Position numbers and translations under genes: made by a program. A model generated the notes under the pieces. The model made no database searches and was not told the origin of the DNA. It was given only the letters and a program-made list of their open reading frames with translations. Source: Branchipolynoe longqiensis (lineage: Eukaryota; Annelida; Polychaeta; Phyllodocida; Polynoidae). From it: a stretch of 64,000 nt of DNA. Where the stretch lies: assembly GCA_030323885.1 (NCBI GenBank), contig CM059194.1, forward strand, positions 11,952,963-12,016,962. Direction: 5' to 3'. Below, piece after piece: positions 16,748 to 57,775 of this stretch. Within the stretch, counting starts at the first letter, position 1; the number at the start of each line of letters is the position of its first letter.

Positions 16748-17080
16748 CTAAAGGAAGAAAATATAAGTTCATTGAGCAGTTTGTCACATACTTAACATCA
16801 TGCTTTAAGTGTTGCAAGCAAATATAAGTTCATTAAAGTTACATTCTCTGATGAAACATCTTTTTGTTAAAACCAAAACACTTACCTACATTTGATTATA
16901 TGCCCACCTTAGATATTGGTGCATTAAATTATACTTTGAGATAGTATATACAGAATAATCAGTGAATTCTTTAGCCCATCCCTTTGGACACCTACGTTGA
17001 GAAAATCCATTAGGCACGAATGCCATTAACCAATTAGGTCAATATTGTGACCTCATTAGCAGTGCCCTCATTCTAAGTAC

Positions 17081-17415: not shown

Positions 17416-17639
17416 GTACCATGTGAGCTTAGTCAGGTTCCAGGAGGTCTAGTGGGAACTTTGATGGCACCATGGCATAGTTCGCTAGCGTTGTTGCCAA
17501 AAAATCTCACCACAATGGCAGTCTCAAAGTCTAAGCGCAGAGAGGTTGAATTGAATATTCTATTATCCTTTATAATCGCACTAGTGTGATGGTTTTGAGC
17601 TTCCTGCCTCTAGGGTTAATGTAAGCCCATGTGCTGTAA

Positions 17640-20829: not shown

Positions 20830-20861
<32 letters not shown>

Positions 20862-23037
20862 CGAGGAAGGGGCCTGCGAGAGCGCCGTGGGCAAGTCCCG
20901 GAGGTGGGCCTGGTGCTCCGGGGCCTCCCGGTGGTTGGTGTAGGTGGGGCGGGGAGGGGCGTTGGCGGGGTAGTTGGCTGGGAAGCCAAACTCCAGGAGG
21001 TCAATCAGGTCTTGGTCGTGATAGTCCTGGAGGCGGCTTCGCCAGGCGGGGATGTGGAGGCCTGACAGGAGGGGGATGCGGGCAGCAAAAAAATTAGGTA
21101 GTCCCGCAGTACGGAGGGCGTCGTAGGCCTGGGAGAAGGTTGGGTATCGGTCCCAGGTTGCGCCGGAGAGGTGTGGCCATATGGAAAGGAGGGTAGGGTG
21201 GTAGACTGGGGGTGGGCCGCAGGAGGGGGTGGCGGGGAGGGTGTCCTGGAAGTCAGGGTTAACCACGTCGGCAACGGGCTCTCCCAGGTCGCCGAGGTGG
21301 GGGGGTCGGGAGCGGGGGGGTCGGGGGGAGAGGCGGTGTTGTTGCCACCGGGGAGGCGGGGAGGCGGGAGTGGGGGAGGAGGTGCGTGGGGGTGGTAGAG
21401 GGGGTGGGCGAATTCGTCAGGAGTGGAGGGGCGGGTGCCCCGGGGGTTTGGTGATTGGGGGGGGCGGGGTGGGGGGGGCGGGGTCAGAGTCAAAGTCAGG
21501 GAGGTGGTGGATGTAAGCGGTGTCAGCGGGGGCGCCCCCGTGGGGGCGTCGGATGTGGGGGCGAGGGCGGTGGTGGCGGGGACGGCGGCTGCCATCGGTG
21601 AAGTCAGGACAGGGGGCGGTGGAGATGTGAGCGGTGTGGTCGGGGGCGTTATGTAATGGATCACCAGCTGTGGGGTGGGGCGGTCAGATGAGAGGAGGGC
21701 GGTTGGAGCCGGTTGGTTGGTGGGCGCTACGTCAGCCCTGGAGGTGGTCGGGTGAGCGGCCGCCGCCGTCGGGTGAGTGGCCGGCGGGACTCCCGGTGCT
21801 CGGTGGGCGATGACGGGGGTGATGGCTGTGCCAGGGCGAGGGTTGGCGTCAGGAGTGACGTCATCACAGCGGAGGCAGTTGTGGTGGCGGCTGGGGGTCC
21901 GGGGATGTGAGGGGGCCTCCCGGGGGGCCGCAGTGGGCCGGGGCCGGTGCTGGCCCCCCGCCAGGGATGGCAGGCGGTCGGGGGGAGGGCTCCCCTGGGG
22001 GCGCGCGGCCTGGGCCTCGGAGGTGTGTCGCCGCCGCTGGACTAAAAATCTGGCGAGGTGATCTCGGGGGCAGCAGATGTGCACTCCCGGGTCCGTTTGG
22101 TGAAGCAGACTGCCTCGCTGTGGACGGTCAGGATGCGTCGCAAGTTGGCGCAGTACGCGCATGCGTGGCACTTCCTGGAGCCCTGCTCTCAATGTGCCTC
22201 ACCAGTGGGGGCGAGGTCGCCTGAGGCGGGGTCGGGGATCCACGCAGGGCAGGGCAAGCCGTATGCGTCTCGGGTGTAAGGGGTGCAGGGCTCAGCCTGG
22301 GAGGAGCGCGGCTGGGCGGCGGCAGGGCGGGTGGAAGCTGTGGAGCGGGAGGCGGCAGCTCGGGAGGTACCGGGGGCAGTCGCGGGGGCGGTGATGACGT
22401 CCAGCTAGACGCGTTAATAGCTATGGGGTCGTGCCACCCATCTGGGAGCCTCCCGTCAGCGATCCATGCGAACACAGTTTCTGAGTATCTCCGGACGGTA
22501 GGCCAGGGATGGGTCACACAATCGTGCTGTACTGTCAGGTTATGGTGGAGGAGGCCTGGGATTGAGTCTGAGGGGAAGGCGGGATGCGACTCGAGCATCC
22601 GGAGGGTGAGGTTATACTCCTCCATGGTGGCCTCCCCTCTCTTGAGTGCCTTCCCCTCGGGCCCTCTCTCAATCAGGTCATGGGAGAAGATGTACCCTGA
22701 TGGGATACCTTTTCGTTGTCTTGTGTTTTGCGCCTCGGCCGACTCGAGGATCTCCCGAACTGCCTTGGCGGCAGAGGTGGGGCTGTGGTCCGGGGCGGCT
22801 CGGAGGGCGGCAGGGAGGCGGCCTGCTAGGTTGTGTAGGCGCCTTATCTGGTATACCGTCTGTAGAGGGGATGGACATCATGGTGGGGCGAGTGGCTGGG
22901 AGCAGCAGGGCGGCCGAGAAGGGGGGGCGGGATTATGTAAGACGTCAACGGTCGGATGGTAGGGAAGAGAGAGTGGGGGCGGAGAGGGGGGTACTCCTCC
23001 TTCGCCGCGAATCAAACGCAATGCAAGCATTACGACC
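18260..23037 (-). mobile_element. GC-rich YR retroelement (family D), copy 1
   Basis: About 4.8 kb inserted into the PAT-like RT remnant without target duplication. Domain order on the minus strand is gag-like, proline-rich linker, reverse transcriptase, RNase H, tyrosine recombinase. It shares its in-frame stops (TAA at 20616-20618, TAG at 20316-20318) with copy 2. The first 1.9 kb on the plus strand (to about 20140) is indel-rich and lacks about 250 bp of the recombinase/RNase H region. A homopolymer G run of about 30 bases occurs at 20829-20860. Confidence 0.85.
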
Positions 23038-23142
23038 GAAGTTACCGGAAGATAAGCTAACTAAATTAATATTACACTGCTGCGGAGGGTGTAGGAGTCC
23101 GGGGAGACCATGGTGTTAGAGGCCAGGGTTATAGGGGAATTC

Positions 23143-23439
23143 GGCACTTCAAATATCTCAAAAGTTAGCCATTTAAAATAAAAATTACTCAAACTAAAGT
23201 ATGGTAGATTATAACGATCAACCTAATATATTTATCTCAGAAAATTACAGAAACTCAAAACCATCGGGCTATGCACCATTCAAGACCGACAGCAGGTAGG
23301 CCTACAGTCTGATCGATCGTTTTGAGTTTCTGGCATTTTTTCTATATCAATATATTAGGTTAATCATTATAATCTACCTTACTTTAGTTTTAAGCTATGC
23401 TTATTTTAAATGGCAAACTTTTAAGATATTTGAGGTGCA
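23143..23439. mobile_element. foldback element FB, copy 1
   Basis: Two arms of about 130 bp are inverted around a short centre; the arms start GGCACTTCAAATATCTCAAA and end with ATATTTGAGGTGCAA. The same element is found at 25209-25508 and 42353-42650, with single arms or diverged pairs at 54853-56515 and beyond 63370. It is non-coding. Confidence 0.8.
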
Positions 23440-23562
23440 ACCATGGATGCAAAATTAATTTTGGCATCCACGCCAAAACTCTGACACCATAGACTGTCGC
23501 CATCTTGTCTTTTTGCATTCTTTTCCATTTCAGCCACTCTGTGCTGATTTAAATAGCAGTTG

Positions 23563-25199
23563 GTGTGGAGGGGAAGGCTGTGAAGAAGGGGGAAGCCACC
23601 AGGGAGGAATACAGCATCTCCGTGCGGATGGTGGAGGCCCACCCCTCCTTCCCCTCTGACTCCATCCCCGGCCTCCTCCACCATAACCTGACGGTGCTGA
23701 GGGACAACATCACCCATCCCTGGCCTACTGTCCGTAGATACTCAGAGATGGTTTTCACCTGGATTGCGGACGGTAGGCTGCCCGATGGGTGGCACAAGCC
23801 CGACTCGGATTGCCCCAATGCACAGGCACGGTCGTCCAAGGCCGACGGTCGCACGCCCTACAGCGAGGAGGCCTATGCCGTTCCCTGCCCTGCCTGGAAC
23901 CGCGACCCCGCCTGGTGCGGCCTCGGGCGCCCGGAAGCATCACCCCTGCGCATATTGTGCCAAGGTGAGGCATATCCTCACAGCTCACAGTGAGGCTTAC
24001 ATAACATAGACGCTGGAGTTGTCACTACGCCGCCAGCGCCCTCCCCGCCCCACCTACACCAACCACGGGGAGGCCCGGGAGCACGAGGTTCACCTCCTCG
24101 ACTTTGCCCGGACCGAGCTCGCCCACGGCGCTCTCGCCGGCCCCTTCCATGTCCCCCCCTTCACACCCTGGGCCCAGGTCTCCCCGATGATGACCCACCC
24201 CAAGTCGGGCCTGAGCAAGAGGCAGGTCATCGTCGACCTCTCCTACCCTCCCGGAAGCAGCGTCAACGCCGGCATCCCCCGTCGGGTAACCACGGGTAAC
24301 CACGGCCGTCGCCTGGATCCTCCGGCGCGAGGGCTTCCATGCCCTCTTCGACGTCGATGTCGATGACTTTGTCGGGTGCGAGCTCTCCTACCTGAGGGCC
24401 CGCCAAGCCTTCGATGGCTTCATCACCCTCATCGGCGCCCTCGGGCTGGAGGTCGCCTACGGGAAGTGCCACCCTCCCACGGTCCGCCTCACCTGGCTCA
24501 GATTCGCTCTCGACAACAAGGTGATAATGATCCGGATCGCCCCCGACAAAGTCGAGGATCTCATCGTCGACTGCGAGGCCCGGATCGCCCACCCCACCCT
24601 CGGCCGCTGTGAGCTCCAGAGTATCCTCGGCCGCCTCAACCAAGCTGTGTCCTTCCCACAAGGAAGTTCATGGGCCGCCTCCTCGCGGCCCTGCTAAGCT
24701 GTTATGGCGCCGCCTCCCTCACCCTCGGGGAGGAGGCCCGCCGCAACCTCAGGTGGTTTGCGCTCTACCATCGCGCCTCTATCGGCCTCCACCTCCTCCG
24801 CGCCCCTAAGGTCCGCTGCCTCGTGATAGAGTGCGACTCCTGCCTCACCGGCAGCGGGGATTACTCCCCGACGGGCTGTTACGCCTCCAGCTCTCCTCCA
24901 GTCACGCTCTCCTGCCATTCCTTTTCCACCCACTCACCCATACTTATTTTCTTTCTCCTCTGAGGGTGGAGGGCTCTTTGGGGCTCCCTCTTCCCCCCCC
25001 CCCCTGAACTCTCGCCATGTGCGCTGACTGACATTTATATCTCCTCATTGCATTGCCCTATTTATTCTACTTTATTCATTATCCTGTACTATCCTTCACT
25101 TTTGATCATCCTGTATTATCCTGTATGTTCATCACACTCCTGAATAAAGTGCTCTTTTTCCACCCTCAGCCCGTTATTCCTCCTTCGTCACGTATCATA
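23563..25199 (+). mobile_element. family D YR retroelement, internally deleted (copy 3)
   Basis: Opposite in orientation to the other copies. Its left part encodes the gag-like region (HPWPTVRRYSE near 23720, WIADGRLPDGWH near 23770, CPAWNRDP near 23890, then HPCAYCAKVRHIL in another frame). The RT starts near 24046 (PPRPTYTNH, then VIVDLSYPPG near 24230). A deletion joins GIPRR to the region around the active site, where it reads VDVDDFVG, so the catalytic Asp-Asp lost in copies 1 and 2 is kept. RNase H breaks off near 24850. The end carries AATAAA near 25144 and the family terminus. The 5' end is truncated at the junction with duplication copy 1. Confidence 0.8.
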
Positions 25200-26417: not shown

Positions 26418-27711
26418 GATGCGCGAAAAGGAAGAAGGGAAGGCGGGGGTGGGAAAAAGGCGTTTTATTAATGCCTCAACAGAGGATACAGAGGAACAGA
26501 TACACATGCAAGGAACAAGGAAAGGGCTCATGAGGAGCAAAGAAACAGGCTCGTGAGGAGCAATACAGTGATGGGCTCATGAGGAGCAGAGGTAATGCAG
26601 GAGGGGCTCATGAGGAGCAAAGTCAGAGTTCTGGTAGAGGGGGTGCCTCGAGAGGCTGGGCCGTGTCGCCCGAGGTGTGAGGTGCGAGGTGGTGGGCCCC
26701 GGCTTCGTCTGGGCGGCGTTTCGATTGGTGGTCGCTGGGAGGTTGTCCGTGGAAGTCGCGGGGCTGTCGGCAGTGGTGAGGGTTAGGCGCCAGGAGGGGC
26801 CCCCCGGGCCGGCCGGGGGGGGGGGGGGGGCGGCGGATCAAAAATCCGCCGAGGCGGCCGGGGTCTGGCGCTCACGGGCTTGCTTGGTGAGGCATTCGGC
26901 CTCGCAGTGCCTGGTCAGTAAGCGCCGCACATTGGCGCAGTAGGCGCAGATGTGCCGGCGCCTGTCTCCCACCTCGCCGTGGGCCTCCCCGATGTGGGCC
27001 CGATCGCACGAGGCGGGATCGCGGTTCCAAGCGGGGCAGGGGGCCCCGTGAGTGTGCCTATCGTAGGCGGTGCGGGCGTCGGCTTGGGGCCGGGGCGGGT
27101 GTGTGCCTCGGGCCCATTCGCCTCGGGGCAAGTCCTCGCCTCGGGAGACTGGTGTTGCCGGAGGGGTGGGCGTGGTGATGGAGTCCATCCTCAGGGTGTT
27201 GAGGGCCACAGGGTCGTGCCATCCGTGGGGGAGCCTCCCGTCCGCTATCCAGGTGAAGATGGCCTCGGAGTAGCGGCGGACCGTAGGCCACGGATGCACG
27301 AGGATATCCCTCATCACGGTGAGGTGGTGGTGGCATAGGCCCTGGAGGGAATGCTCGGGGAAGGCTGGATGTCCGGCGAGGGTGAGGAGGGCGAGGTTGT
27401 ATTCATCGCGGGTGGCCTCCCCTCTCTTGACCGGCTTCCGCTCAGGGCCCCTCTCGATGAGGTCCGAGGGGAAAATGTATCCCGAGGGGATGCCTTGGCG
27501 CCTGCCGGCGCGCTGCGCCTCGGCGGAAGCGAGGATGTCTCGGACGGCGTCGGCCGCGGATGCTGGGGTGTAGTCCTCGGCGACGTCCTGGAGGTAGGCC
27601 ATGGGAGGCGCGGGGCGGTGTCTGGTGAGGTGTGAGCACAGCGCGACAGCCCGGGGCGGGGGAGGGTCTCTTCCTCTCCTCGCATCAAACGTAATGCTTC
27701 GCATTACGACC
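26418..27711 (-). mobile_element. family D YR retroelement, gag-only deletion derivative (copy 4)
   Basis: This 1.3-kb element keeps the family 5' end (GGTCGTAATGCGAAGCATTA, a small hairpin) and 3' end (AATAAA, then CGCGCATC) but lacks RT, RNase H and recombinase. The junction is near a G-run at 26817-26830. It sits in the LTR with no target duplication, as expected for recombinase-mediated integration. It must depend on proteins from other elements, if it was mobile at all in this form. Confidence 0.8.
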
Positions 27712-27713
27712 AA
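26838..27713 (-). CDS. gag-like protein of family D YR retroelement
   Basis: This is an uninterrupted frame of 291 residues, the best-preserved coding sequence of the family. The middle carries HPWPTVRRYSEAIFTWIADG and RLPHGWHDP. The C-terminal third has a candidate zinc-binding cluster: CPAWNRDPASCD, then RHICAYC and LLTRHCEAEC. The same blocks occur in copies 1-3, where the frame is broken. By position (first ORF of a YR retroelement) it should be a nucleic-acid-binding structural protein; that is inference. The start at 27713 is in the terminal 5' sequence; a later methionine (MAYLQDV, about residue 38) is equally plausible. Expression is unlikely to be independent of a complete element. 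Confidence 0.65.
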   Translation of the reverse strand: MVVMRSITFDARRGRDPPPPRAVALCSHLTRHRPAPPMAYLQDVAEDYTPASAADAVRDILASAEAQRAGRRQGIPSGYIFPSDLIERGPERKPVKRGEATRDEYNLALLTLAGHPAFPEHSLQGLCHHHLTVMRDILVHPWPTVRRYSEAIFTWIADGRLPHGWHDPVALNTLRMDSITTPTPPATPVSRGEDLPRGEWARGTHPPRPQADARTAYDRHTHGAPCPAWNRDPASCDRAHIGEAHGEVGDRRRHICAYCANVRRLLTRHCEAECLTKQARERQTPAASADF

Positions 27714-27763
27714 TGCTCTCTGCCAATATATAATTCTGAACCGAAAATCCGTATATTTTTACA

Positions 27764-33588: not shown

Positions 33589-34055
33589 TAGAGGTACCAG
33601 CCAGAGTTTATCTCGTCCAACTACATGTGTGTTTATTGTCTATCCGGAAGATATAAATAATCTGGGGTATAACTAGTTATGCTAATATTATTTAGGCTGT
33701 AGGGGGCCCTATTGTGACGCGACCGGCTGGGGGCTGGACGCTGTGCCGCCTGTACTCCCCCAATCAGGATGAAGAGTTGCGGGGAGCCGTTTTGCAGTCG
33801 GCGAGCTATCCTACAATCAGGACGAAGATATGCGGGGGAAGTGAGTTCGGGTGGCGCGACACACATTCGGTATCCAGTCAGCCGGAATTTTGACTTTTTG
33901 ATTGATTGCTTGTTACTTGATGTTGAACTGTTTGACTGTTGTATTTTGATGTTTGAACTATTTGATTAAACGGAGGGGCCTTTAGAGGTACCAGCCAGAG
34001 TTTATCTCGTCCAACTACATGTGTGTTTATTGTCTATCCGGAAGATATAAATAAT
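33589..34055 (+). repeat. B1-A2-B2 split repeats of PAT-like element, copy 2
   Basis: B1 at 33589-33661, A2 at 33662-33982, B2 at 33983-34055. Same units as 14023-14488. Here B1 follows the recombinase tail directly, without the MITE. Confidence 0.65.
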
Positions 34056-34216
34056 AGTGTCTTATCATCTTAATATCCAATATGAGGTGCATGCACCTCT
34101 GTGATATTAAACTGATTTTTTTTAATTGGGGTTTACTGCTCCAGTGCCATCTGTGGTAACTGCTTTGTGACACAGGAGACATATATCTTCTCCATGTGGT
34201 ATCCATAGATTCATAT

Positions 34217-34622
34217 TTGGGGCCCACAATAACCCATATGGACCCTATATGGGCTTTGTGTTATCTGACAGTGGGCCGTTGGGCCACCTTTGGGCCAATG
34301 GTGGCCTATGCTGGTATGGGTGGCTTGCCACCGTTGTTGGCCCGACAGCGGGTCAGTTGACAAAACAAAGTTGGCCCAATGGCGTCTTGCCACCGTTGGC
34401 CCGACGACGGCTTATCACCGTTGGCCCGACGGTGGCTTATCACCGTTGGCCCGGCAGTGTGGCCACTGTTGGGCCACTGTTAGGCCACCATTGGCCCAAT
34501 GGTGGCATATGCTGGTATGGGTGGCTTGCCACCATTGGCCCAACAGTGGGTAAACAAAACAAGGTCGGCCCGACGGCGGTTTGCCAGCTTTGGCCCGACG
34601 GTTCTGCGCTATCTGGGTAATA
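34217..34622. repeat. GGCCC-rich inverted/tandem array, copy 2
   Basis: Counterpart of 14640-15045. The central units read GACGACGG and GACGGTGG where copy 1 has GACGGCTG and AAGCGCGG. Length is the same in both. Confidence 0.6.
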
Positions 34623-34984
34623 GCACAAACAAACACCACATTAGTGTATATCAGATAATTCATTTTGTTACTGTTAACTTCTAGGATTCTAATTGTTCTA
34701 GTCTAGAAGAATGTAATAACAAATAGTAGTAACTCCTTCGTGGCAATGCATATATTTAGAAAACTACTACAACATTTCAGTAATATAAGTTATTTATTAA
34801 AAGTGTGATCCATACTTTACTGGGATTATATGTTTCATTAATTGCCAAATAACTTAACAAATTGCTTCTGTGGAATATACACTGTGAATAGAATTATTCA
34901 TGTAGATAGAAATTCACTTTTATTTCAATTTCCATATATATATTTATGAAAAGAGTGAAATGAATGAACACATTGAGTACTCAC

Positions 34985-35098
34985 TTGTTTCACACTTGTG
35001 TCCGGTGTACCCAGGGCTACAGGTACAGCTGTAGCTATTCACATGGTCATTGCATGTACCACCATTTTGACAAGGGGTACTAGAGCACTCATTTATTT
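34985..35098 (-). CDS. EGF-like exon (duplicate of 15408-15521)
   Basis: Same 38-residue EINEC module with six cysteines, the same CTTTAG acceptor and GTGAGT donor in phase 1. Its conservation at protein level while flanking intron bases differ is compatible with either recent duplication or purifying selection; the divergence is too small to decide. Adds a further module to the protein if both pairs are spliced in. Confidence 0.92.
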
Positions 35099-36210
35099 CT
35101 AAAGGATGACAATTCAAGATCATTAGGTATACTGTCTTGACAGGCCAGGCTACATAAAGAAAGCGAACTGACACAACAATCCAATAAAACATTTCTTTTC
35201 AATAAAAATAGAACTGTTGCTAATGTGGACAAGGAGAGATGTCTATGCACAACTAAACAACTATTACAATGATCCAGCAAAGCAACAGTTGGCATATCCC
35301 ATTTATTGAAGATTTTATTTTAAACCAAAGAAAACCCAGACAAATTAAGAGAACAATAGAGCACAAGGGTCACACATATATAAACCTTAAATATGATGAC
35401 CTTGGAGCCACCCTGAGAGAATACCCTAGGTTTGGCTTTGTGCCCATTCCATGCCCTTCGCACCCTAGCCATTCTTTCCACCTAATCTCAAAAGCATCAG
35501 GATCCCTCCCCACTAGTTACCTTACTGATGAATCAAAAAGCAGCGTACAACAACAATTAGTCAAAGGAAATCAATAAATGAAGAAAAAGAAGATACAGAC
35601 AGTTAACAAATTACTGATCCACTCTAGCCCCAGTACTTCCTTCCCCTTGCAAATTTGTTTATTCAGTAATATTTAAAATCTACAAACTCCAAAGATTACA
35701 TACCTTAACAGTTGAAATACATCTAGCAGGATATATTTCATTTACATGAACAACTAAACAACGTCTAACACTCCCCACTTGCTTACAAAGTCTATACAGC
35801 CTATGAACTCCAACATGACTTACTCTAACAGTTGAAAGGCAACTAGTACTAGTAGTAGGATCCAAAGTTACATTATCTGCTTACCACCAATAATACTAAT
35901 ACATATCATGATTAACTAATATTCATAGAGCACAAAGTCTACACAGCCTATAAACCCACTAATATGATTTATGTCTTTGACTAAGTTAAACTACATTGTA
36001 TCTATTGATAGTTTTGGGGATGTTGTTGAATTAGTGAATTGTGAGTCATTAGTTGCGCTAGAGACTCCTACATGGCATCTTTGCAATGTCGATTGTCATT
36101 GCCTATGTTAGCCTATCTATATCTCAATTTTCTGACACATCATAATTACAATTGACAATCAAGGGGACTATCAACAAATTTGAAAGTGTGTGTGAAGAAT
36201 GAATAGCAAC
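35099..36210. other. intronic stretch, copy 2
   Basis: Counterpart of 15522-16633 with a few substitutions. Nothing further was recognised. Confidence 0.45.
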
Positions 36211-36324
36211 CTGTGTCACAGCGATCTCCAACATAACCAGGTTCACAGTTACAACTGTATGCATCAACATCGTCGGTACAGCTGGCATCATTCTCGCATG
36301 GGTTTGACCCACACTCATCTATAT
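36211..36324 (-). CDS. EGF-like exon, calcium-binding type (duplicate of 16634-16747)
   Basis: The DIDEC calcium-EGF module with six cysteines, identical at protein level to its duplicate. The unusual GTTGCT donor is preserved here too. About 1.1 kb of intron separates it from the other exon of the pair, as in copy 1. Confidence 0.9.
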
Positions 36325-36904
36325 CTAAAGGAAGAAAATATAAGTTCATTGAGCAGTTTGTCACATACTTAACATCATGCTTTAAGTGTTGCAAGCAAAT
36401 ATAAGTTCATTAAAGTTACATTCTCTGATGAAACATCTTTTTGTTAAAACCAAAACACTTACCTACATTTGATTATATGCCCACCTTAGATATTGGTGCA
36501 TTAAATTATACTTTGAGATAGTATATACAGAATAATCAGTGAATTCTTTAGCCCATCCCTTTGGACACCTACGTTGAGAAAATCCATTAGGCACGAAGGC
36601 CATTAACCAATTAGGTCAATATTGTGACCTCATTAGCATTGCCCTCATTCTAAGTACCATGTGAGCTTAGTCAGGTTCCAGGAGGTCTAGTGGGAACTTT
36701 GATGGCACCATGGCATAGTTTGCTAGCGTTGTTGCCAACAAATCTCACCACAATGGCAGTCTCAAAGTCTAAGCGCAGAGGTGAATTGAATATTCTATTA
36801 TCCTTTATAATCGCAATAGTGTGATGGTTTTGAGCTTCTGCCTCTAGGGTTAATGTAAGCCCATGCTGTACGCATAACTTATTTTGTATACCGAAAGAAG
36901 TAGG

Positions 36905-37428
36905 AGGTAGGAGCATGGTAGACTGCAGTAAACCCAGGAGAGAATCTGTAAACAGCTATACTGATAAAGTGTCAAATAAATTTAGCCATAAAAGCGTTGA
37001 CAATGTTGTCGAATATAGGGAACAGGGCGATTTTCTCTCTATGGTAGATTTAAAAGACGCATACAGGGCCATAGCCATTCATCCATCTGACAGGCCTGAT
37101 ATGGGACTTCCATGACCAACCGGAGAAGGGGCCCATGCACATGCTAGATAATAGATTGTGCATGGGGCTCTCTTCGAGCCTATTCGTGTTTTCAAAAATA
37201 TCTGACTTTATTGTAAGATGTGCCATGAGAGAAGGGATAGATAAAGTAGTGAATTATCTAGATGATTTTTGGATAGTGTCTCGTGAATATAAAACTGTGG
37301 TATTCCAACAAAATAAGCTAATTGCATTGTTTTGACAGCTTGGGTTTTTACGTTATCTTTAAGAAATTGAAATCACCGGCTACTGAAATAACATTTCTGG
37401 GAATTATTAATTATGCAAAGCTGGAAAT
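36905..37428 (+). pseudogene. PAT-like reverse transcriptase remnant, copy 2
   Basis: Reading blocks: VNSYTDKVSNKFS, then FLSMVDLKDAYRAIAIHP (motif A, near 37030), NRLCMGLSSSLFVFSKI (near 37150) and NYLDDFWIVS near 37250, where the YLDD active site is intact. Frames shift twice. The region ends at LGIINYAKLE, where the GC-rich YR element is inserted at 37429. The RT reading region continues at 42250 with KLPLDKLTKLILHC, so the insertion is clean. It is the same family as 31926-34055. Confidence 0.8.
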
Positions 37429-37779
37429 GATATGCGACGAAGGAGGAAGAGCAGGCAGAGGTGGAATAAAAACACTTTATTCAGTGAGGAAGATCAAGTG
37501 CAATAATGAGGTAATCAATCAATGTCACAAAATAATCAATCAATCAAGGTAATATCAATAAAAATCAAGGTAATGGTAAGAAGATCATGAGAGAGTCCAT
37601 GGGGAGAAATGTCAAAGTCAGGAAGTGGGGAGGCGGCCCAAAGAGCCCTCCACCCTATGAGAGGAAGGTGTGTAAGTAAGGGAAGGTGGGTGGAGAAAAA
37701 AGTGTGAGTGCTGCAGGGGCGAGTGGAGGCGAGTGGCTGGGAGCAGCAGGGCGGCCGGGTTATAAGGCCGGAGAAGGGG

Positions 37780-38680
37780 GGGGGAATTATGTAAGAAGTC
37801 AACGGTCAGGAAGGGGGGAGGCGCCCCAAAGAGCCCTCCACCAAACGGGGGGAGCGCACTGGCAGGCCTGGGCTGGCCCCCGGCGCAGGCTATGCAGGGT
37901 GAAGCTGTTGGGGGCAGGAACAGCGAGGGCTCTGAGAGCGCATCGCAGAATGGCTGTTAGTGTCCGAGGGTCCGCCTTCATTATGCCCTAAGGCATAATG
38001 AAGGCGGGATCGGCGAGGCTAGCCGGAACCAGAGCCACGGAGGCGCCCCAGGAGGCAACAGGGCAGAGAGGAGCGCCCGGCGAGGCGGGCACAAACAGGG
38101 CGACCACCCTCGAGGGCAGGGCGATGGTCTTGGAGCTCCGGAGGGTGATCCGGAGGCCCCCGGGGGCCGGGGCGACATCGGCGCAGGTGATAGTGTGGGG
38201 GCCGCCTCACACCTCGGGACTGGGAGAGAGGAGGCTGGACTGCTGAAGCATCCCGTAGTACCCAAAGAGGAGGGCGGTCCGAGGGATGTCGCCTGAGGGG
38301 GCAGCCGCGGCCAGGTGGGCGGCGACGGCCGCGAGGTGGGAGGGCTGGCCGGGCGACGTGTCCGGAGGCCCGCTCCCCTCCCCGGCAAACGTCTCGCGCG
38401 AGGCAGGAGCCAAACCCGGAGGGGTCGCCCCCGGCCACCTCAACCCAGGAGCTCTCCCCGGAGAGGGCGTTTCGGTCGGAGGCCGTGGCGATGGAGCGGG
38501 CGTAGAGGGCGGTGGGGTAGGTGGCGACATTGAAGGCGGATGGAGCCAGAGGGTCACGGCCATGGCCCGAGGCAAAGGCTACATAGCCCTCGGCCTGGCA
38601 TCGGCGATTCTTCCAGGTGGAAGGGGCGAGGGAGGCGACGCGGAGCCCTCCATGGCGGCGACCTCGGATGCCGTGTAACC
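37780..38680 (-). pseudogene. tyrosine recombinase of family D, copy 2
   Basis: ALLFGYYGMLQQSSLLSP near 38270 aligns with the first catalytic box, but the arginine (usually in LRQSNL) is glutamine. DPRTLTAILRCALRAL leads to FTLHSLRRGPAQACQ near 37900, the second box. The nucleophilic tyrosine region is absent: sequence after the box turns into the repeat A2/B1. A 16-bp perfect palindrome at 37972-38007 contains an in-frame TAG. It cannot encode an active recombinase. Confidence 0.7.
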
Positions 38681-38685
38681 GATAA

Positions 38686-39260
38686 TCAGAGTCCGGGGTT
38701 GTAAGGGAAGTCGTCGTGGCAAGGGTAGGTGTGGACAAGCCCGAGGCGGGCGAACTCTCCTCGGGCCACGCCAGCCCAATGCCCGGGGAGGTGGGCACGG
38801 CTGAGAGCATCGTCGAGGACGAGGTCGGCCCCGGGCTTGTGGAGGATGGTGAGCTCGAAGCAACCCTCGGCCGCCATTAGCCAGAGTTCACGCGCACATG
38901 TCCCGAGGGTGGGTCCCGGCCCCGCCCTGACTCGAGGGAGGCGGTGGAGGCCATGTTGTCGGTATTTATGACAAGGTTGGCCCCGACGACGTCGTCCGAG
39001 GGGAGGGCGCGGAGGGCCACGACGAGGTTGACCGCCTCCAGCTCGTGGATGCTCGGGAAGTGGGCGCGGAAGGCGGCGGAGTACCCTCGGGCATAGCAGT
39101 GGGTTGAGGAGTAGGCTCCCCCACCCATTAGGCAGGAGTCGCACTCGATGACGACCCTCTGGGTCACGGAGAACGTGGAGTCCATTGGAGGCCCATCCAT
39201 AGGCTGCGAACCACCTGAGGTCCCGGAGGGCCTCATCCCCGAGGGTGATGGAGCCGAAGC
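38686..39260 (-). pseudogene. RNase H domain of family D, copy 2
   Basis: VVIECDSCLMGGGAYS near 39140 supplies the first aspartate, FPSIHELEAVNLVVALRAL near 39050 the glutamate, NLVINTDNMASTASLE near 38970 the third acidic residue, and DLVLDDALSRAHLPG near 38800 the closing box. All acidic positions are present, but frameshifts separate the start, middle and end. RNase H degrades the RNA strand during reverse transcription. Confidence 0.75.
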
Positions 39261-39329
39261 CGAAACAGCTGCGCAGAGCCATGAAGAGGCGGGCCATGAA
39301 CTTCCTCATGGGCAGGACGCAGCAGCCGA

Positions 39330-40026
39330 CATGGTTCAGGCGGCTGAGGATGCTTTGGAGCTCCTGGCACCCGAGGGTGGGGCGAGCGATCCGGGCCTCA
39401 CAGTCGGCCACGAGTTCATCGACTTTGTCGGGGGTGATGCGGGTGGTCATTGCCTCGCTGTCGACCGCGAAGGTGAGGTGCACGGCAGGAGGGTGGAATT
39501 TTCCTGAGGTGACCTACAGGCCGAGGGCGCCGACAAGGGCGATGAAGGCGTCGAAGGCCTGGCGGGCCCTCAGGTATGTGAGCTCGCACCCGACAAAGTT
39601 GTCCACATACAAGAGGGCATGGAAGCCCTCGTGGCGAAGAACCCAGGCGACGGCGGAGGTGACCTGGACGCAGGTCACCCCCAAGGAGTGGCATCCAAAG
39701 GGGAGGGCGAAGTCGACGTAGGTCGCCCCGTCGAGGGTGATGCCGAAGAGGGGGCATAAGAGGGGGTCGGCACGGAGCTGGCGGTAGGCCCTGGATATAT
39801 CCGCGGTCCAGGTTTACGCCCCCGTGCCCTCCCGGAGGAGGCGGCGGCCCACGTCGGCGACAGAGGGGAGCCTGTCGGCATGGGGGCCTGCCTAGATACT
39901 CGCGGCGGGGGATGCCGGCATTGACGCTGCCCCCGGGAGGGTAGGACAGGTCGACGATGACCCGCCTCTTGCCAGGGTCGGACTTGGGGCGGGTCATCAT
40001 GGGGGAGACCTGGGCCCAGTGGGTGA

Positions 40027-40057
<31 letters not shown>

Positions 40058-40464
40058 GAGGAAGGGGCCTGCGAGAGCGCCGTGGGCAAGTCCCGGAGGT
40101 GGGCCTGGTGCTCCGGGGCCTCCCGGTGGTTGGTGTAGGTTGGGCGGGGAGGGGCATTGGCGGGGTAGTTGGCTGGGAAGCCGAACTCCAGGAGGTCAAT
40201 CAGGTCTTGGTCGTGATAGTCCTGGAGGCGGCTTCGCCAGGCGAGGATGTGGAGGCCTGACAGGAGGGGGATGCGGGCAGCAAAAAAATTAGGTAGGCCC
40301 GCAGTACGGAGGGCGTCGTAGGCCTGGGAGAAGGTTGGGTATCGGTCCCAGGTTGCGCCGGAGAGGTGTGGCCATATGGAAAGGAGGGTAGGGTGGTAGA
40401 CGTGGGGGGTGGGGCCGCAGGAGGGGGTGGCGGGGAGGGTGTCCTGGAAGTCAGGGTTAACCAC
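39330..40464 (-). pseudogene. reverse transcriptase of family D, copy 2
   Basis: Begins with LLEFGFPANYPANAPPRPTY near 40230 and continues RRVIVDLSYPPGGSVNAGIP near 39950, TADISRAYRQLRADPLLCPL near 39790, then FALPFGCHSLGV near 39690. The active site reads LYVDNFVG (39590-39612) where YLDD-type is expected: the second aspartate is asparagine. Stops: TAA at 39814-39816 and TAG at 39514-39516. A G-run of about 30 bases at 40027-40056 breaks the N-terminal part and is probably unreliable sequence. Copy 1 has the same stops and substitution. Confidence 0.8.
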
Positions 40465-41254
40465 GTCGGCAACGGGCTCTCCCAGGTCGCCGAGGTGGGG
40501 GGGTCAGGGAGCGGGGGGAGGGGAGGGGGGAGAGGCGGGGTTGTTGCCACCGGGGAGGCGGGGAGGCGGGAGCGGGGGAGGAGGTGCGTGGGGGTGGTAG
40601 AGGGGGTGGGCGAATTCGTCAGCAGTGGAGGGGCGGGTGCCCCGGCGGTTTGGTGATTGGGGGGGGGCGGGGTGGGGGTGTGGGGTTGCCGGGGGGTCAG
40701 AGTCAAAGTCAGGGAGGTGGTGGATGTAAGCGGTGTCAGCGGGGGCGGGACCGCGGGGGCGTCGGATGCGGGGGCGAGGGCGGTGGTGGCGGGGACGGCG
40801 GCTGCCATCGGTGAAGTCAGGACAGGGGGCGGTGGAGATGTGAGGGGTGTGGTCGGGGGCGTTATGTAATGGATCACCAGCTGTGGGGTGGGGCGGTCAG
40901 ATGAGAGGAGGGCGGTTGGAGCCGGTTGGTTGGTGGGCGCTACGTCAGCCCTGGAGGTGGTCGGGTGAGCGGCCGCCGCCGTCGGGTGAGTGGCCGGCGG
41001 GACTCCCGGTGCTCGGTGGGCGATGACGGGGGTGATGGCTGTGCCAGGGCGAGGGTTGGCGTCAGGAGTGACGTCATCACAGCGGAGGCAGTTGTGGTGG
41101 CGGCTGGGGGTCCGGGGATGTGAGGGGGCCTCCCGGGGGGCCGCAGTGGGCCGGGGCCGGTGCTGGCCCCCCGCCAGGGATGGCAGGCGGTCGGGGGGAG
41201 GGCTCCCCTGGGGGCGCGCGGCCTGGGCCTCGGAGGTGTGTCGCCGCCGCTGGA
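40465..41254 (-). pseudogene. proline-rich linker region of family D
   Basis: A long frame rich in P, T, S and A, with runs such as PPPPP and TPLTSPPPP, lies between gag and RT. Composition alone (strand-biased C-rich DNA) could produce it, so it may be a low-complexity linker or just the consequence of base composition. It recurs in copy 1. Confidence 0.45.
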
Positions 41255-42230
41255 CTAAAAATCTGGCGAGGTGATCTCGGGGGCAGCAGATGTGCACTCC
41301 CGGGTCCGTTTGGTGAAGCAGACTGCCTCGCTGTGGACGGTCAGGATGCGTCGCAAGTTGGCGCAGTACGCGCATGCGTGGCACTTCCTGGAGCCCTGCT
41401 CTCAATGTGCCTCACCAGTGGGGGCGAGGTCGCCTGAGGCGGGGTCGGGGATCCACGCAGGGCAGGGCAAGCCGTATGCGTCTCGGGTGTAAGGGGTGCA
41501 GGGCTCAGCCTGGGAGGAGCGCGGCTGGGCGGCGGCAGGGCGGGTGGAAGCTGTGGAGCGGGAGGCGGCGGCTCGGGAGGTACCGGGGGCAGTCGCGGGG
41601 GCGGTGATGACGTCCAGCTAGACGCGTTAATAGCTATGGGGTCGTGCCACCCATCTGGGAGCCTCCCGTCAGCGATCCATGCGAACACAGTTTCTGAGTA
41701 TCTCCGGACGGTAGGCCAGGGATGGGTCACACAATCGTGCTGTACTGTCAGGTTATGGTGGAGGAGGCCTGGGATTGAGTCTGAGGGGAAGGCGGGATGC
41801 GACTCGAGCATCCGGAGGGCGAGGTTATACTCCTCCATGGTGGCCTCCCCTCTCTTGAGTGCCTTCCCCTCGGGCCCTCTCTCAATCAGGTCGTGGGAGA
41901 AGATGTACCCTGATGGGATACCTTTTCGTTGTCTTGTGTTTTGCGCCTCGGCCGACTCGAGGATCTCCCGAACTGCCTTGGCGGCAGAGGTGGGGCTGTG
42001 GTCCGGGGCGGCTCGGAGGGCGGCAGGGAGGCGGCCTGCTAGGTTGTGTAGGTGCCTTATCTGGTATACCGTCTGTAGAGGGGATGGACATCATGGTGGG
42101 GCGAGTGGCTGGGAGCAGCAGGGCGGCCGAGAAGCGGGGGGGGATTATGTAAGACGTCAACGGTCGGATGGTAGGGAAGAGAGAGTGGGGGCGGAGAGGG
42201 GGGTACTCCTCCTTCGCCGCGAATCAAACG
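41255..42230 (-). pseudogene. gag-like region of family D, copy 2
   Basis: SAAKAVREILESAEAQN near 41990, IPSGYIFSHDLIERG near 41900, HPWPTVRRYSETVFAWIADG near 41720 and then, after a frameshift, LPCPAWIPDPASGD near 41440 and HACAYCANLRRILTVH near 41365. The frame ends with TAG at 41255-41257 after ITSPDF, as in copy 4 (SADF). An in-frame stop lies in the cysteine-rich part. Copy 1 is equivalent. Confidence 0.7.
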
Positions 42231-42249
42231 CAATGGAAGCATTACGACC

Positions 42250-42310
42250 AAAGTTACCGTTAGATAAGCTAACTAAATTAATATTACACTGCTGCGGAGG
42301 GTGTAGGAGT
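42250..42310 (+). pseudogene. continuation of PAT-like RT after the YR insertion
   Basis: KLPLDKLTKLILHC continues the RT that was cut at 37428. Equivalent in copy 1 at about 23038-23098. After it the homology stops. Confidence 0.65.
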
Positions 42311-42352
42311 CCGGGGAGACCATGGTGTTAGAGGCCAGGGTTATAGGGGAAG

Positions 42353-42650
42353 TTGGCACTTCAAATATCTCAAAAGTTAGCCATTTAAAATAAAAATTAC
42401 TCAAACTAAAGTACGGTAGATTATAACGATCAACCTAATATATTTATCTCAGAAAATTACAGAAACTCAAAACCATCGGGCTATGCACCATTCAAGACCG
42501 ACAGCAGGTAGGCCTACAGTCTGATCGATCGTTTTGAGTTTCTGGCATTTTTTCTATATCAATATATTAGGTTAATCATTATAATCTACCTTACTTTAGT
42601 TTTAAGCTACTCTTATTTTAAATGGCAAACTTTTAAGATATTTGAGGTGC
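42353..42650. mobile_element. foldback element FB, copy 3
   Basis: Near-identical to 23143-23439, being part of the duplicated block. Confidence 0.8.
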
Positions 42651-42827
42651 AACCATGGATGCAAAATTAATTTTGGCATCCACGCCAAAACTCTGACACC
42701 ATAGACTGTCGCCATCTTGTCTTTTTGCATTCTTTTCCATTTCAGCCACTCTGTGCTGATTTAAATAGCAGTTGGGTACTGGAACCAGTAATTCCACTTC
42801 CAGTTCCACACTAAACCAATTTTCGCC

Positions 42828-47868: not shown

Positions 47869-48598
47869 TGGTCGTGTTTCCCACCAACGATCCGCGGGCA
47901 TAATCGATTAATCAACTCGGGTCACCCAAGCAATTTTTTGGCGCATGCGCAGATTCGATTAAGGGAAGTCGGAATCCTTAAATAGAGGGTGGGGGGGCGT
48001 GGTAAAATGTTGTAGCCTTGAGGAAGCGAAACCGAATGGCTAGGTGCGGGGGGAGGTTTCAGTTGGCGTTCCTCGGTGCCGCTTGGGGCATAGTGGGTAC
48101 CCGGCTCCCCCTACCGAATCAACCACAATTCGGAAATTATGCGCCGATTCGAGTAAGGGAAGCCGGAGACTGGTGTGGGAGAAAGAACAATTTATTTTAT
48201 GAACAAGGTACACCGTGGGAATCAGTCCAGTGCGCCGATGTCGAGGGGGCCCTCCCGGATCGCCAGAAGCTCTGAGACCGCCAGAGCCAACCCAAAACAC
48301 AAGGCTAACGCTCGGGGGGCCTCAGAGGAGGCCAGTCGGGGGATGTAGTTGAATGCCACCGTGGACTCCCAGGTGCCCTGCGCCATTATGGCCGCCAGGT
48401 CGGTGCTACGTGATGCGCATGCCTGGGCGGCCCCCCTTCCGGAGGCTGTGGAGGGTGAGCCTGGAAGCCTCCGCGAGTGCCTCCCTCACAATGGGGGTCA
48501 GCATCTGCGTGGTCAGGGGGGCACCCGTATGGCAGATGAACGCCGGGGCATCGGAGGGGGCTGGGACCTGGTCCCGGGCGCTGCAGCAGGTGAGCCGG

Positions 48599-49857
48599 TG
48601 TAGTAAGTTCAAAACACTACCCCACAAAAACACTACGGTAGTGTTTTCAACCTAGGTTCAAAACACTACGGTAGTGTTTTTAACCTGGTTGATGGTAAGT
48701 TCAAAACACTACTGTGGCCACGCTCAAAACACTATCCTTAAGTTCAAAACACTACCTTTAAGTTCAAAACACTACTCTATTTGCTTAGGGTGGAGCAGTA
48801 TGTAGTAATGTGGGTCAGCCGGTTGCTGGATGTTGTTTAACGTCCTAGCATCATCTAAGGTTATATCAGGAAGGGTATCGACTTGTGACAGTGCACACTC
48901 ATGGGACTTTGTCTCTGTGTCTGTGTGTGTGTCTCTTTGTCTGTGTGTGTCTCTGTGTGTGTATCTGTGTCTCTGTGTGTGTCTCTGTGTCTCTGTGTGT
49001 GTCTGTGTGTGTCTTTGTGTGTGTCTGTGTGTGTGTCTGTGTGTGTCTGACTCTGTGTCTCTGTGTGTGTATGTGTCTGTATGTGTGTGTCTCTGAGAGC
49101 ATGACACACATGCAGACACTCTCCCTCCCTCCCTCCATCCCCCCGTCCCTGCCTCCCTCCCTCCCTCCCTCTCTCTCTCCCTCTCTCCCTCCCACACAGA
49201 GACAGAGAGAGAGACACACACACCGACACAGAGACACCCACAGAGAAACAGAGACACACACAGAGACACAGAGACACACAAATAGACACAGAGACACACA
49301 CAGAGACACACACACATACACAGAGACACAAATACACAGAGACACACACAAAGACACAGAGACACACACACAGACACACACAGAGACACACAGACACAGA
49401 GACACACACACACGAACACCCACACAGAGACACACACGGAGACACAGAGACACACACACACAGACACAGACACATACACACACATAGACACACACACAGG
49501 GATGGAGGGAGGGATGACGTTTGACGTTTGTGGTGCACATGCCGCAGCGCTATCACAGTATCAGCGTATACTACTAATACGTGCTTCAAACGCCGCAGCA
49601 CATCAGCGTATACTACTAATACGTGCTTCAAATGCCGCAGCACTATCAGCGTATACTACTAATACGTGCTTCAAACGCCGCAGCAGGGTCAGCTAGTGTT
49701 TTGAACTTGGGTGGTGTTTTGAACGTATGTAGTGATAGTGTTTTGAACTTAACAGTAGTGTTTTGAACCTAAGTTCAAAACACTACCATCGTGTTTTGAA
49801 CGTAGGTTCAAAACACTGGTAGTGTTTTGAACGGCGTAGTGTTTTGAACGTCCTACA
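48599..49857. mobile_element. Ginger1-like non-autonomous element with GTTCAAAACACTAC arrays (TSD CCGG)
   Basis: Termini are TGTAG...CTACA, flanked by CCGG on both sides (48595-48598, 49858-49861). Both ends are arrays of GTTCAAAACACTAC in direct and inverted copies. The interior holds a SINE tail fragment (48829-48905), a GT-rich run (48905-49100), a CCCT run, an AC-rich run (49191-49500) and three units of CAGCGTATACTACTAATACG (49559-49683). TGT...ACA ends with CCGG duplications are the signature published for Ginger1 transposons; assignment is inference since no transposase is present. Confidence 0.65.
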
Positions 49858-49952
49858 CCGGGCAGGACCAGGATGAAGAGGGCGACGGCCTGTGATGAAG
49901 ACTTGATCATCTTGGACGATGAGATGGTGACCCGGACCTCCCCGGGCACCGG

Positions 49953-50314
49953 TGTGGCGTTTTCAGTGCCCAGTCATGCTCAGCGGCCTGTCATGGCTTC
50001 TGCGCATGCGCGGATTTTCGCACGTTGCGGCGAGCACTGCTATTTGTTTTGTTTACTGCTACGTTGTTAGCTGCTACGTTAATATCGCTTGGAATTTAAG
50101 GTTAATTTAATGAAATTTCATTATTTGAGTATGTAATTCTGTTAAATATGATCGCATTCAATAGATTTCGGCCTGATCTGACCCTAACACTGCCGGGCAC
50201 CAGCTGAGCTTGTAGCCGGCGAGGCCACGGGTGTTTTGCATATGTCTTAAAATCCGCGCATGCGCAGAAGCAACGACAGGCCGCTGAGCATGACCGGGCG
50301 CTGAAAACGCCACA
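49953..50314. mobile_element. Ginger1-like MITE, 362 bp (TSD CCGG)
   Basis: TIRs of about 66 bp start TGTGGCGTTTTCAG and include CATGCTCAGCGGCCTGTC and TTCTGCGCATGCGCGGATTT, inverted at the right end with few mismatches. CCGG flanks at 49949-49952 and 50315-50318. Non-coding. It lies 95 bp from the other CCGG-flanked element. Confidence 0.75.
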
Positions 50315-51665
50315 CCGGGCTAAAATCCTCGCGTCGCACTGTGTGGGGGCCACCCATCCACCGTGGGAGGGGGAGAAGAGGTTGGACTGTCTCATCAGGG
50401 TGAAGAAGGCGATGATCACCACTGCCCAGGGGACCACACCGCAGTGACCCTGCGTGCGGAAGTAATCGTAGATGTGTCGGATCATGGGTGGCGTGATGGA
50501 TGGGTGGGCCGCATCCGCAGCATCAGCTCCTCCTGCCGTTTTGCGGTCGCGGAGGTGGTTGTAGCCCGCTTCGGCGTCACAGCTTTGGCCCGTAACATCG
50601 GGCCGCCGCTCCCCCCTTCCCCGGAGGCCTGGGGCCTCTGGGGAGGAGCGGCGGCCGTCCGCCGGTGTGTGGGGGATGTGGCATCGCCGCCATCTTGGGT
50701 AGATGTTCTGGGCTGCTCCTGCTCCTGCTCGGGCCAGGGCCTCCGGGTGGCTCGCTTCGCGGGCCCACCGACCGGTCGTGATGTTCGTCAGGTTCTCTGC
50801 ATTTTCTATTTTCACTTGGTGGTTTATTTAACGTGGTTGGAGTTGGGGTCGCTCTGTTTTCTTAAAATGTTGTAGCCTTGAGGAAGCGAAACCGAATGGC
50901 TAGGTGCGGGGGGAGGTTTCGGTTGGTGTTTGTTGGCGCCGCTTGGGGTGTGGTGGGTACCCGGCTCCCTCTACCGAATCAACCACAATTCGGAAATTAT
51001 GCGCCCATCCTACAGACTCGGGTCGGATAATTGAATGCGCTTCTCCATGCTTGGGGTGGAAAAAATGGTGGTTCAATCCAAAACTTTTTTTTTTTTTAAT
51101 AACTGATATAACTACAGCAAAATAGGATTTAAAGTATTTTATGATTGCATAGCTTAGTTATATTTCCATTTCATTAATATGTGTTATTACTAAAAAAAAA
51201 CATGTAGGATTGGTACTGATAGCTATTATCCTGTGACGTCAATCAATTCAATTCTTTTATTTTAACTCTCTGCTAGGTATGTTTAGAATAAACTGAGGTG
51301 ATACAAGAAATGCATACAAATTCCTTACAGACAGAAAGGATCACAGAAAAGCGATGCTTATCTAGCTGGTCTCCATGATGTGAATGAACAAGTGATGACA
51401 ATAACAGATGATTATACTTAACCTACATTTTTAACCAATGATTATGATGAGATACTGATGCGTCTCTTCACAGTTAGTAAAAAACGTCATTGTTCCTAGC
51501 AAACCCCAGCCAAGAGGTGGGTTACTGGGGTTCGGTCGTTTTGCACATGGCACATGTATTTCTCGACGCCACATATTTTTGTCAACTCCACTTGCGGTGT
51601 TCGATTTGAAATTCTAGCAACTTGGGTAACCCGAGTCGCCCGGGTCGTGTTAATCGATTACGCCC

Positions 51666-53655: not shown

Positions 53656-53950
53656 TCACACATTATCACACTTTTATGTATCTTTTGCACAAATTAAAGT
53701 GTTTGAAATATAATTGAAATTTATCTACATCAACTTCTGTTTAAATCACACAATATCAGTACTTACAGAATGGGCAACTCATCCTGCAAGGGTATGCTCG
53801 ATATGTGACAGGGGTCACCCGTTTTTCCTCCTTTCCTCGCTGTGAACCCTTCTCGGAATGTTATTATTCAACACGAGTATACAAATGGTGGCGCCCATAT
53901 AAGGCTATTTCCTTTTGCTGGATTTTGGTTATTTCATTGATCACTTCTGT

Positions 53951-54424
53951 GGCCGTAATCGATTAACACGACCCGGGCGACTCGGCTCAACCGAGTGGTC
54001 AGAATTTTAAATAGAACACCGCGATTGGAGTCGACAAAAACACGTGCCGTGTGCAAAACGACCCGACCCCAGTAACCAACCTCTTGGCTGGGGTGGCTAG
54101 GAGCGACGACATCACATTTGTGCTGGTACTGTCCAGCAGGATAACGCTAACAGCCACCGGTACCAGTCATACATGTTTTTGGGGGGTAATAACATAGATT
54201 AATGAAATGGAAATATCACTAGACTATGCCATCATAAAACAATATAAATCCTCTTTTGCTGTAGTTATATTGGTTATTAAAAAAAAAAGGTTTTGGATTA
54301 AGCCACCATTTTTCCCACCCCAGAGCGTGGAGAAGCGTATTCGATTATTCGACCCGAGTCTGTAGGATGTGCGCATGCGCCAAAAAGTGGCTCGGGTGAC
54401 CCGAGTTGATTAATCGATTACCCC
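53951..54424. mobile_element. MITE, CGATTAA-end family, full copy
   Basis: GGCCGTAATCGATTAACACG at the left and GTTGATTAATCGATTACCCC at the right. The reference copy in this window: 474 bp, non-coding. Confidence 0.7.
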
Positions 54425-55052
54425 CAAAGAGTACGAGTATTGTTTAAGTATATATATATACATGTGTTAGTCATTAGCCTCCCCGCTGGGTGGGTCAGTA
54501 TAAATAGGCTTTAACTCCCATGTATGAAGATACAAGGTGCTCTATCATTTTTCTTGTTTTCTAAGATTGTGCTATTTATTCTGTGGGTTCACGATTGTGT
54601 GATTACTAATGACATGCAATCCATGTTGCTTCCTTTCATTTTCTAAGAATAGTTAAAGTTGCATTGTCCGAAAAAAGCATAGCATTTTCAAGACCAAAAC
54701 ATTTCAGATCATATCCAACTTAGATAACAGTGCACTTATTAAACATGTGTTGCTACAAAGAAGGGGATACTATGCCAACTTATTAGGATCTGTTACTGCT
54801 GAAGAATATATGGTCAGAATTGTGGCAATCACGCCAAAATTAATTTGGCATGCTTACATTTAAAATATGTCCAAAGTTATTCATTTTAAAGCAGAGTTAC
54901 TTCAAATTAAAGAAAGGGCGATTATAATAATGAACCTAATATATTTATCTCAGAAAATGACAGAAACTGAAAAGCATCAGACTGTGCAGCTTTAATTAGT
55001 TATGTCTGTGTTTTATAAGGAAATGTCCTATCGAGTAGCTTCCTTCCACAAA

Positions 55053-57370: not shown

Positions 57371-57393
57371 CTGATGACAAAAGAAAATACGAA

Positions 57394-57775
57394 AAGGTAA
57401 TTATAGTTCTATTGACGAATTTAAATCATAAATCACAGTGAAGAATGATGTATGTAGTTGTTTGTTTTTTTAAAGGTAATTATAGTTCTATTTGCGAATT
57501 TCAATCACAAACCACAGTGAAGAATGATGTATGTAGTTATTTTGTAAAAAAAAAAAGGTAATTATAGTTCTATTGGCGAATTTCAATCACAAACCACAGT
57601 GAAGAATGATGTATGTAGTTATTTAAAAAAAAAGGTAATTATAGTTCTATTGGCGAATTTCAATCACAAACAACAGTGAAGAATGATGTATGTAGTTAAA
57701 TTTAAAAAAAGGTAATAATAGTTGTATTGGCGAATTTAAATCACAAATCACAGTGAAGAATGATGTGTGTAGTTT
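57394..57775. repeat. tandem repeat, about 75-bp unit, five copies
   Basis: Each unit contains AAGGTAATTATAGTTCTATT, CAATCACAAACCACAGTGAA and GAATGATGTATGTAGTT, separated by variable A- or T-runs. It lies in the intron beside the EGF exon, covering where its branch-point would be expected to begin. Confidence 0.85.

Follow-up and report, generated by a model that had tools for sequence, protein, structure and literature searches.

In the genome of the annelid Branchipolynoe longqiensis, a MITE is split by a 3,054-bp insert, E1, which with a probability of roughly 90% is an old, deleted Ngaro-like copy that integrated through the junction of its repeats B and A in a circle at an AT[N] site and was later entered by two Ginger1-type elements. 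The split MITE and the nest occupy positions 47896-51665 of the window, that is, the whole stretch of 64,000 nucleotides analysed (contig CM059194.1). The evidence consists of the anatomy of E1, clean empty sites, the end sequences of its family and the target duplications of the Ginger-type elements.

The host MITE and its empty copies

The following parts of the MITE and an empty copy were located in the window.

47901..47951, plus strand: host MITE, left part, beginning with the terminal TAATCGATTAA...
51006..51662, plus strand: host MITE, right part, including an extra stretch of about 245 bp
53951..54424, minus strand: uninterrupted MITE copy (empty site), placed by alignment

The first-pass annotation had stated that the MITE halves rejoin exactly when 47952-51005 is removed and that no target duplication is left, and both statements held. 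The halves rejoin exactly between GCGCATGCGCA and CATCCTACAG. When joined, they were identical to the reverse complement of 53945-54425, which contains the uninterrupted copy 53951-54424, at 414 of 478 aligned bases, without a gap at the join. The left part matched 54420-54370 over 51 of the 62 bp queried with 94% identity, and the right part aligned to 53945-54425 and to 60-473 of the window. For the family comparison, 20 loci of 9.9 kb and 15 short loci were retrieved from the genome (numbered with the prefix L). Seven MITE copies were readable on both sides of the E1 point, one of them (65-476) being uninformative due to a local deletion there. All six informative copies (53951-54424, two in L019, two in L023 and one in L015) were contiguous at this point without target duplication or loss. 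Therefore, the 3,054 bp of 47952-51005 were inserted without duplicating or removing target sequence. The target within the MITE reads GG-ATG-TGCGCATG, and a MITE allele without E1 would be expected as an uninterrupted GGATGTGCGCATG.

The extra stretch in the right half (∼51236-51484) was overlooked in the first-pass annotation. It is absent from the other copies compared, has ACGTCA at both edges and is possibly the tail of a LINE or SINE. Another MITE copy of the host family, L023:1578-2815, is intact at the E1 site and split elsewhere by approx. 950 bp, parts of which were also found in L019, L020 and the window. In L019, a member of the E1 family is placed at the end of a MITE, directly after TAATCGATT.

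Anatomy of E1

E1 lies on the minus strand and comprises the following parts, listed in that orientation.

47952..51005, minus strand: E1, Ngaro-like insert with clean junctions against the empty MITE copies
50863..51005, minus strand: A1, 5' terminal repeat, starting with GGCGCATAATTT
50510..50862, minus strand: 5' region, remnant of the start of a gag-like frame, matching the 5' region of L010, L012, L019, L020 and L028
50504..50510, minus strand: internal deletion junction from the gag side to the recombinase core, placed by the block ends in relatives
48222..50504 (limits approximate), minus strand: decayed tyrosine recombinase remnant in pieces and several frames, interrupted by two inner elements
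48147..48293, minus strand: B1, a unit that recurs in other copies ahead of A2 and behind A
48003..48145, minus strand: A2, internal copy of A
47952..47977, minus strand: B2, truncated outer B, ending in ...CGAATC

Without its two inner elements and a single CCGG for each of them, E1 is approx. 1,425 bp long. The order on the minus strand is A1, gag-side stretch, recombinase remnant, B1, A2 and B2, and the same split direct repeats (A1-ORFs-B1-A2-B2) are present in L020, L028 and others. The order A1-YR-B1-A2-B2 was thus described correctly before, but B2 of E1 is not complete, as it retains only ∼26 bp of a unit measuring ∼147 bp elsewhere in the family. With its C-terminal end, the recombinase frame extends into B1. 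The two A repeats had been called equal; in fact 133 of their 143 bases are identical. The ten mismatches (7%, nine of them transitions) are confined to a 50-bp stretch (P 0.00035 in a span test). Most of them are private to one of the two repeats in an alignment of 42 A copies, and for this reason most look like decay after insertion.

The recombinase remnant and the internal deletion

The A/B arrangement together with the recombinase homologues bore out the earlier assignment to the split-direct-repeat elements with a tyrosine recombinase. E1 contains the recombinase pieces LMRQSNL, SSK, HSLRKGG, GTWES and FNYIPR. The frame itself is broken in E1. Four pieces, entered separately, aligned in order with recombinase homologues, and the expected positions of R, H-x-x-R, W and Y are retained. 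The recombinase ORF of L015 matched 12 homologues with E-values from 2e-31 to 8e-3, one of which is labelled 'integrase' by its source. The R-H-R-Y residues of tyrosine recombinases are present in the alignment with 11 of these 12, homologue P0009 having been omitted. The ORF L018:5485-6024 matched Phage_integrase with an E-value of 2.1e-4, below the curated cut-off of Pfam. The E1 pieces gave nothing useful against Pfam; a protein search with the first piece yielded 49 candidates, none at E 0.01, and a search of PDB sequences gave three rows with a best E-value of 0.29.

E1 has lost an internal segment, which had also been overlooked and which comprises gag-like and RT sequence together with the recombinase's N-terminal part. 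Blocks matching from the 5' side stop at E1 body position 352-354 in L010, L012, L019, L020 and L028, and blocks on the 3' side start at position 359 in L018, L020 and L028. An additional 2.3 kb in L020 and 2.9 kb in L028 lie between positions 353 and 359, while L018 carries its own deletion. The first recombinase piece of E1, cut at 50500 beside the deletion junction, falls at about residue 105 of full-length homologues (315-351 aa). Since E1 matches the gag side upstream of the junction, the N-terminal recombinase part is missing.

In the fuller copies, gag-like, RT-like (YVDDF) and RNase-H-like frames were recognised by eye. The YVDDF motif was seen in this way in L015 and L028, and RT is absent from E1. 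L015:6694-7098 matched RVT_1 with an E-value of 5.9e-4, again below the curated cut-off. Likely frames for gag and RNase H were found by eye in L010, L015 and L028, whereas the Pfam scan of the frames examined gave a match for neither. No methyltransferase match was obtained in the frames scanned, among which the recombinase and RNase H frames also matched nothing; the spacing in L028 leaves little room for such a domain. Four fuller copies span ∼3.7-4.2 kb and are decayed. Given the gag-like, RT and recombinase frames of the fuller copies, E1 is best read, from sequence comparison, as a deletion derivative of a gag-RT-YR Ngaro-like retrotransposon that lost gag, RT and the N-terminal recombinase. 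If the deletion preceded the insertion, E1 would have been mobilised in trans.

Copies of the family in the genome

The A repeat occurs in at least 41 rows in the 1.85-Gb genome of the species, including the two of the window (40 scored of 1,162 candidates). Eight short A loci were dropped, six because longer loci already represented these places and two because they were the window itself. A and B are the ends of a repeat family elsewhere in the genome, and the earlier expectation that A repeats stand at the ends of other copies proved right, as they were found at 36 recorded 5' ends. The copies are full or nearly full (L020, L028 and others), shortened or isolated A-B units. Recombination between A1 and A2 would leave units of the latter kind, and isolated AB repeats are also described for Cafeteria Ngaros in the part of PMC8547959 cited here. 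All seven internal B/A junctions have ATC before A.

A fuller split-direct-repeat element related to E1 was observed in the window itself (37617-42165, minus strand) with gag-like, RT and YR frames, A at 42165-42100 and 37807-37728 and B at 37853-37805 and 37665-37617. Its YR frame seems to be cut before the tyrosine, and GAC follows all three junctions. Its recombinase remnant resembles that of E1 with an E-value of 3e-6 over one 32-aa stretch; three pieces align in the same order, the third pair being weak. The RT/RH ORF of this element had one protein match (E 8e-20, 38% identity over 38%). An open frame of ∼300 aa at 26841-27758 (minus strand) shows 72% DNA similarity in part to the gag-like part of 37617-42165 and probably belongs to a third related element. 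The window further contains a long direct duplication (14023-23563 and 33589-42775) with blocks 89-99% identical, in which the same retrotransposon insertion occurs twice, and a tandem array of ∼5 copies of a 77-bp unit at 57392-57774.

End sequences and empty sites of the family

Of the 36 5' ends on record, which include that of E1, 33 have AT at positions -3 and -2. Elsewhere among the tested positions, AT occurred in 0-6 of 36, and its baseline in the retrieved loci was 0.076. The 5' triplets were ATT (27), ATC (4), ATG (2) and others (3). The ends without AT are those of the second L023 copy, L030 and L037. The target of E1 itself is off-consensus (ATG), as is that of L017. Of 24 rows for 3' ends, 21 were retained as probable ends; those of L015, the first L023 row and L017 were set aside as probably internal, because the next bases resemble A. 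The 21 ends read AATC in 17 cases, GATC in one and AATT in three (L014, second L023 and L041).

Among 24 joined flanks, those of the window, L018, L031 and L040 had been joined at the wrong B and were not used. The others yielded spanning rows for L016, L021, L028, L037 and L041 and a self-match for L017. These alignment rows do not represent independent loci, some of them lying in duplicated parts of the window. For L016, 24 empty-site rows to a repeat family gave ATT in 14, another AT[N] in seven and neither in three. Both rows of L041 had ATT. L021 had ATT in two and GTT in two of four rows. No duplication was seen at the empty sites of L016, L041 and L021. Those of L016 and L041, and partly those of L021, support a target origin of the triplet before A. 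For L028, only one of 34 rows had ATT and 25 had TTT; these sites support the absence of a duplication alone and not the target origin of the triplet. The single row of L037 suggests a lost base.

Proposed integration and alternative explanations

We infer a circular intermediate and the recombinase as the agent of integration. A double-stranded circle with the B/A junction ...CTCGA-ATC-GGCGCAT... would recombine with a 3-bp core of the genome, AT[N], in which the third base is T or, in fewer cases, C or G. Strand exchange would leave the AT[N] of the target before A1 without target duplication, and B2 would be followed either by AT[C] from the element or by AT[T] from the target, the third core base being free to mismatch. 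Two Ginger1-type DNA elements later entered CCGG sites of the recombinase remnant. A more detailed rule for the Ngaro-like core is put forward tentatively, at somewhat less than even odds. According to this rule, the first two bases of AT[N] must match, whereas the third may mismatch and be kept as T of the target on the left and C of the element on the right, or as T on both sides (L014, L041); a core that departs from the consensus may be rescued, as at E1, by likeness of the target to the A arm (GCGCAT). Prominent inverted repeats around the core were not detected for E1 (P 0.26) or the neighbouring element (P 0.99; 300 shuffles each), and inverted recombinase sites were rejected on these values. 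A 6-bp target duplication was also rejected, as ATGCGCC belongs to A in both copies. Counting against the proposed integration are the three 5' ends without AT, the rows of L028 and L037, the off-consensus target of E1, the clustered though mostly private differences between A1 and A2, the lack of prominent inverted repeats and the Pfam scores of recombinase and RT, which stay under the curated cut-offs.

The likeness beside the E1 junction could also be taken as the crossover core itself, a 6-bp ATGCGC that the MITE target has in common with the internal junction and the end of A. The target TGCGCAT and the A start GGCGCAT do agree in six of seven bases. Still, the six bases are absent from the other probable 3' flanks and from the empty-site rows of L016 and L041, and the feature that recurs is instead AT[N] before A. 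Such a core is very unlikely for E1, and ATGCGC was rejected as a family rule, being contradicted by the other copies, though the likeness may have favoured the one off-consensus site of E1. Microhomology at this one junction would suit end-joining repair of a linear fragment without any recombinase. The ends of E1, however, coincide with the A and B ends of the family and identical ends recur at other loci, which makes repair of this kind extremely improbable.

It is highly improbable as well that E1 represents a mobile class with split direct repeats and a recombinase only, which would resemble a Crypton with long repeats and move as circular DNA, no reverse transcription being involved. Between the E1 repeats there is indeed nothing left except the decayed recombinase and a short piece from the gag side. 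However, gag-like, RT and RNase-H-like frames are present in other members of the A/B family, and E1 lacks the N-terminal recombinase part. Furthermore, the gag-recombinase fusion (query 50420-50600) was spanned by the window alone among the 40 scored of 148 candidates, the other 39 rows covering the recombinase side alone (34) or the gag side alone (5). Given this uniqueness among the scored rows, E1 is best taken as a single deletion derivative and not a mobile subfamily, and a recombinase-only subfamily was rejected on the matches listed. The reading as an old deleted Ngaro-like copy is preferred.

The inner Ginger1-type elements and the order of the nest

Two CCGG-flanked elements had been reported inside the recombinase gene, and both were recovered within its remnant.

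48599..49857, unstranded: non-autonomous Ginger1-type element with a (TG)n/(CA)n core, between CCGG 48595-48598 and CCGG 49858-49861
49953..50314, unstranded: non-autonomous Ginger1-type element of 362 bp, between CCGG 49949-49952 and CCGG 50315-50318

The first has the ends TGTAG...CTACA, and its right 358 bp are repeated in the genome (at least 40 matches scored of 3,517 candidates). CCGG follows 15 of 16 retrieved right ends of its family and flanks both ends in the window. In its core (48899-49500), the (TG)n and (CA)n tracts form imperfect inverted arms of ∼190 nt. At L068 and L061, the right flank of the first Ginger1-type element begins with CCGG, after which comes TGTGGCG... or TGTCG..., as if another Ginger-type element had entered the same duplication. 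The second element has the ends TGTGG/CCACA. All of its 40 scored matches were full length with 98-100% identity, its own copy included (2,314 candidates), and it is a very young repeat. Exact 4-bp duplications were found in 14 of 15 retrieved copies (11 CCGG, two ACGG and one CCCC). By its TGTNR ends and CCGG/ACGG duplications, the sequence of each inner element matches the Ginger1 type.

The nest had been described as four-layered. The two CCGG elements are not nested in each other, however, and the four elements therefore occupy three levels. The order MITE, YR element and CCGG elements can be read as was claimed, but the mutual order of the two Ginger1-type elements cannot, for the same reason. 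The nest is a relative clock with an old MITE, an old Ngaro-like derivative and a young Ginger-type element, which is unsurprising.

Comparison with known systems

The locus is an ordinary case of nested transposons, and its value lies in the end-site record of the E1 family. The integration model for tyrosine-recombinase retrotransposons in the cited parts of the papers is drawn from DIRS1-like elements. In the present genome, the ends of many old split-direct-repeat copies can be read and several paralogous empty sites are available, so that the core, its mismatch tolerance and the outcome of strand exchange become countable.

The inner elements share TGTNR ends, inverted repeats and 4-bp duplications of CCGG or ACGG with Ginger1 as described in the cited part of PMC2836005, where the duplications are given as CCGG (75%) and CCGT/ACGG (24%). 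Unlike Ginger1, both elements of the window are non-autonomous.

Cryptons likewise have a tyrosine recombinase and a proposed circular intermediate. In the cited part of PMC3212892, they are described with short terminal direct repeats only and without RT, whereas in the E1 family the split direct repeats are long and the fuller copies have RT, which places it outside the Crypton definition. DIRS1-like elements, in the part of PMC3266345 used here, have a 3-bp junction, NTT termini (most often ATT) and no target duplication. The E1 family resembles them in a 3-bp core corresponding to a triplet of the genome, ATT in many cases, in the absence of a target duplication and in the circular intermediate proposed. 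DIRS1-like elements are described there with inverted terminal repeats, internal complementary regions and a methyltransferase domain, while the repeats of the E1 family are split and direct and, to judge from the spacing alone, little room is left for a methyltransferase.

The closest likeness is to the Ngaro-like elements of the order DIRS from amphioxus, Xenopus and Cafeteria, as far as described in the cited parts of PMC2632668, PMC9210276 and PMC8547959. The arrangement A1-[ORFs]-B1-A2-B2, RT and YR and probably gag and RH in the family, isolated A-B units and residence inside other mobile DNA are common to both, a Cafeteria Ngaro residing inside virophage elements (PMC8547959). Amphibian Ngaros have a hydrolase ORF. 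E1 differs in having no gag, RT or N-terminal YR, and its fuller relatives of ∼3.7-4.2 kb are decayed. Altogether, E1 fits as a further member of the known Ngaro-like type, and its 3-bp core fits a model already in print for DIRS1-like elements (PMC3266345, in the part cited).
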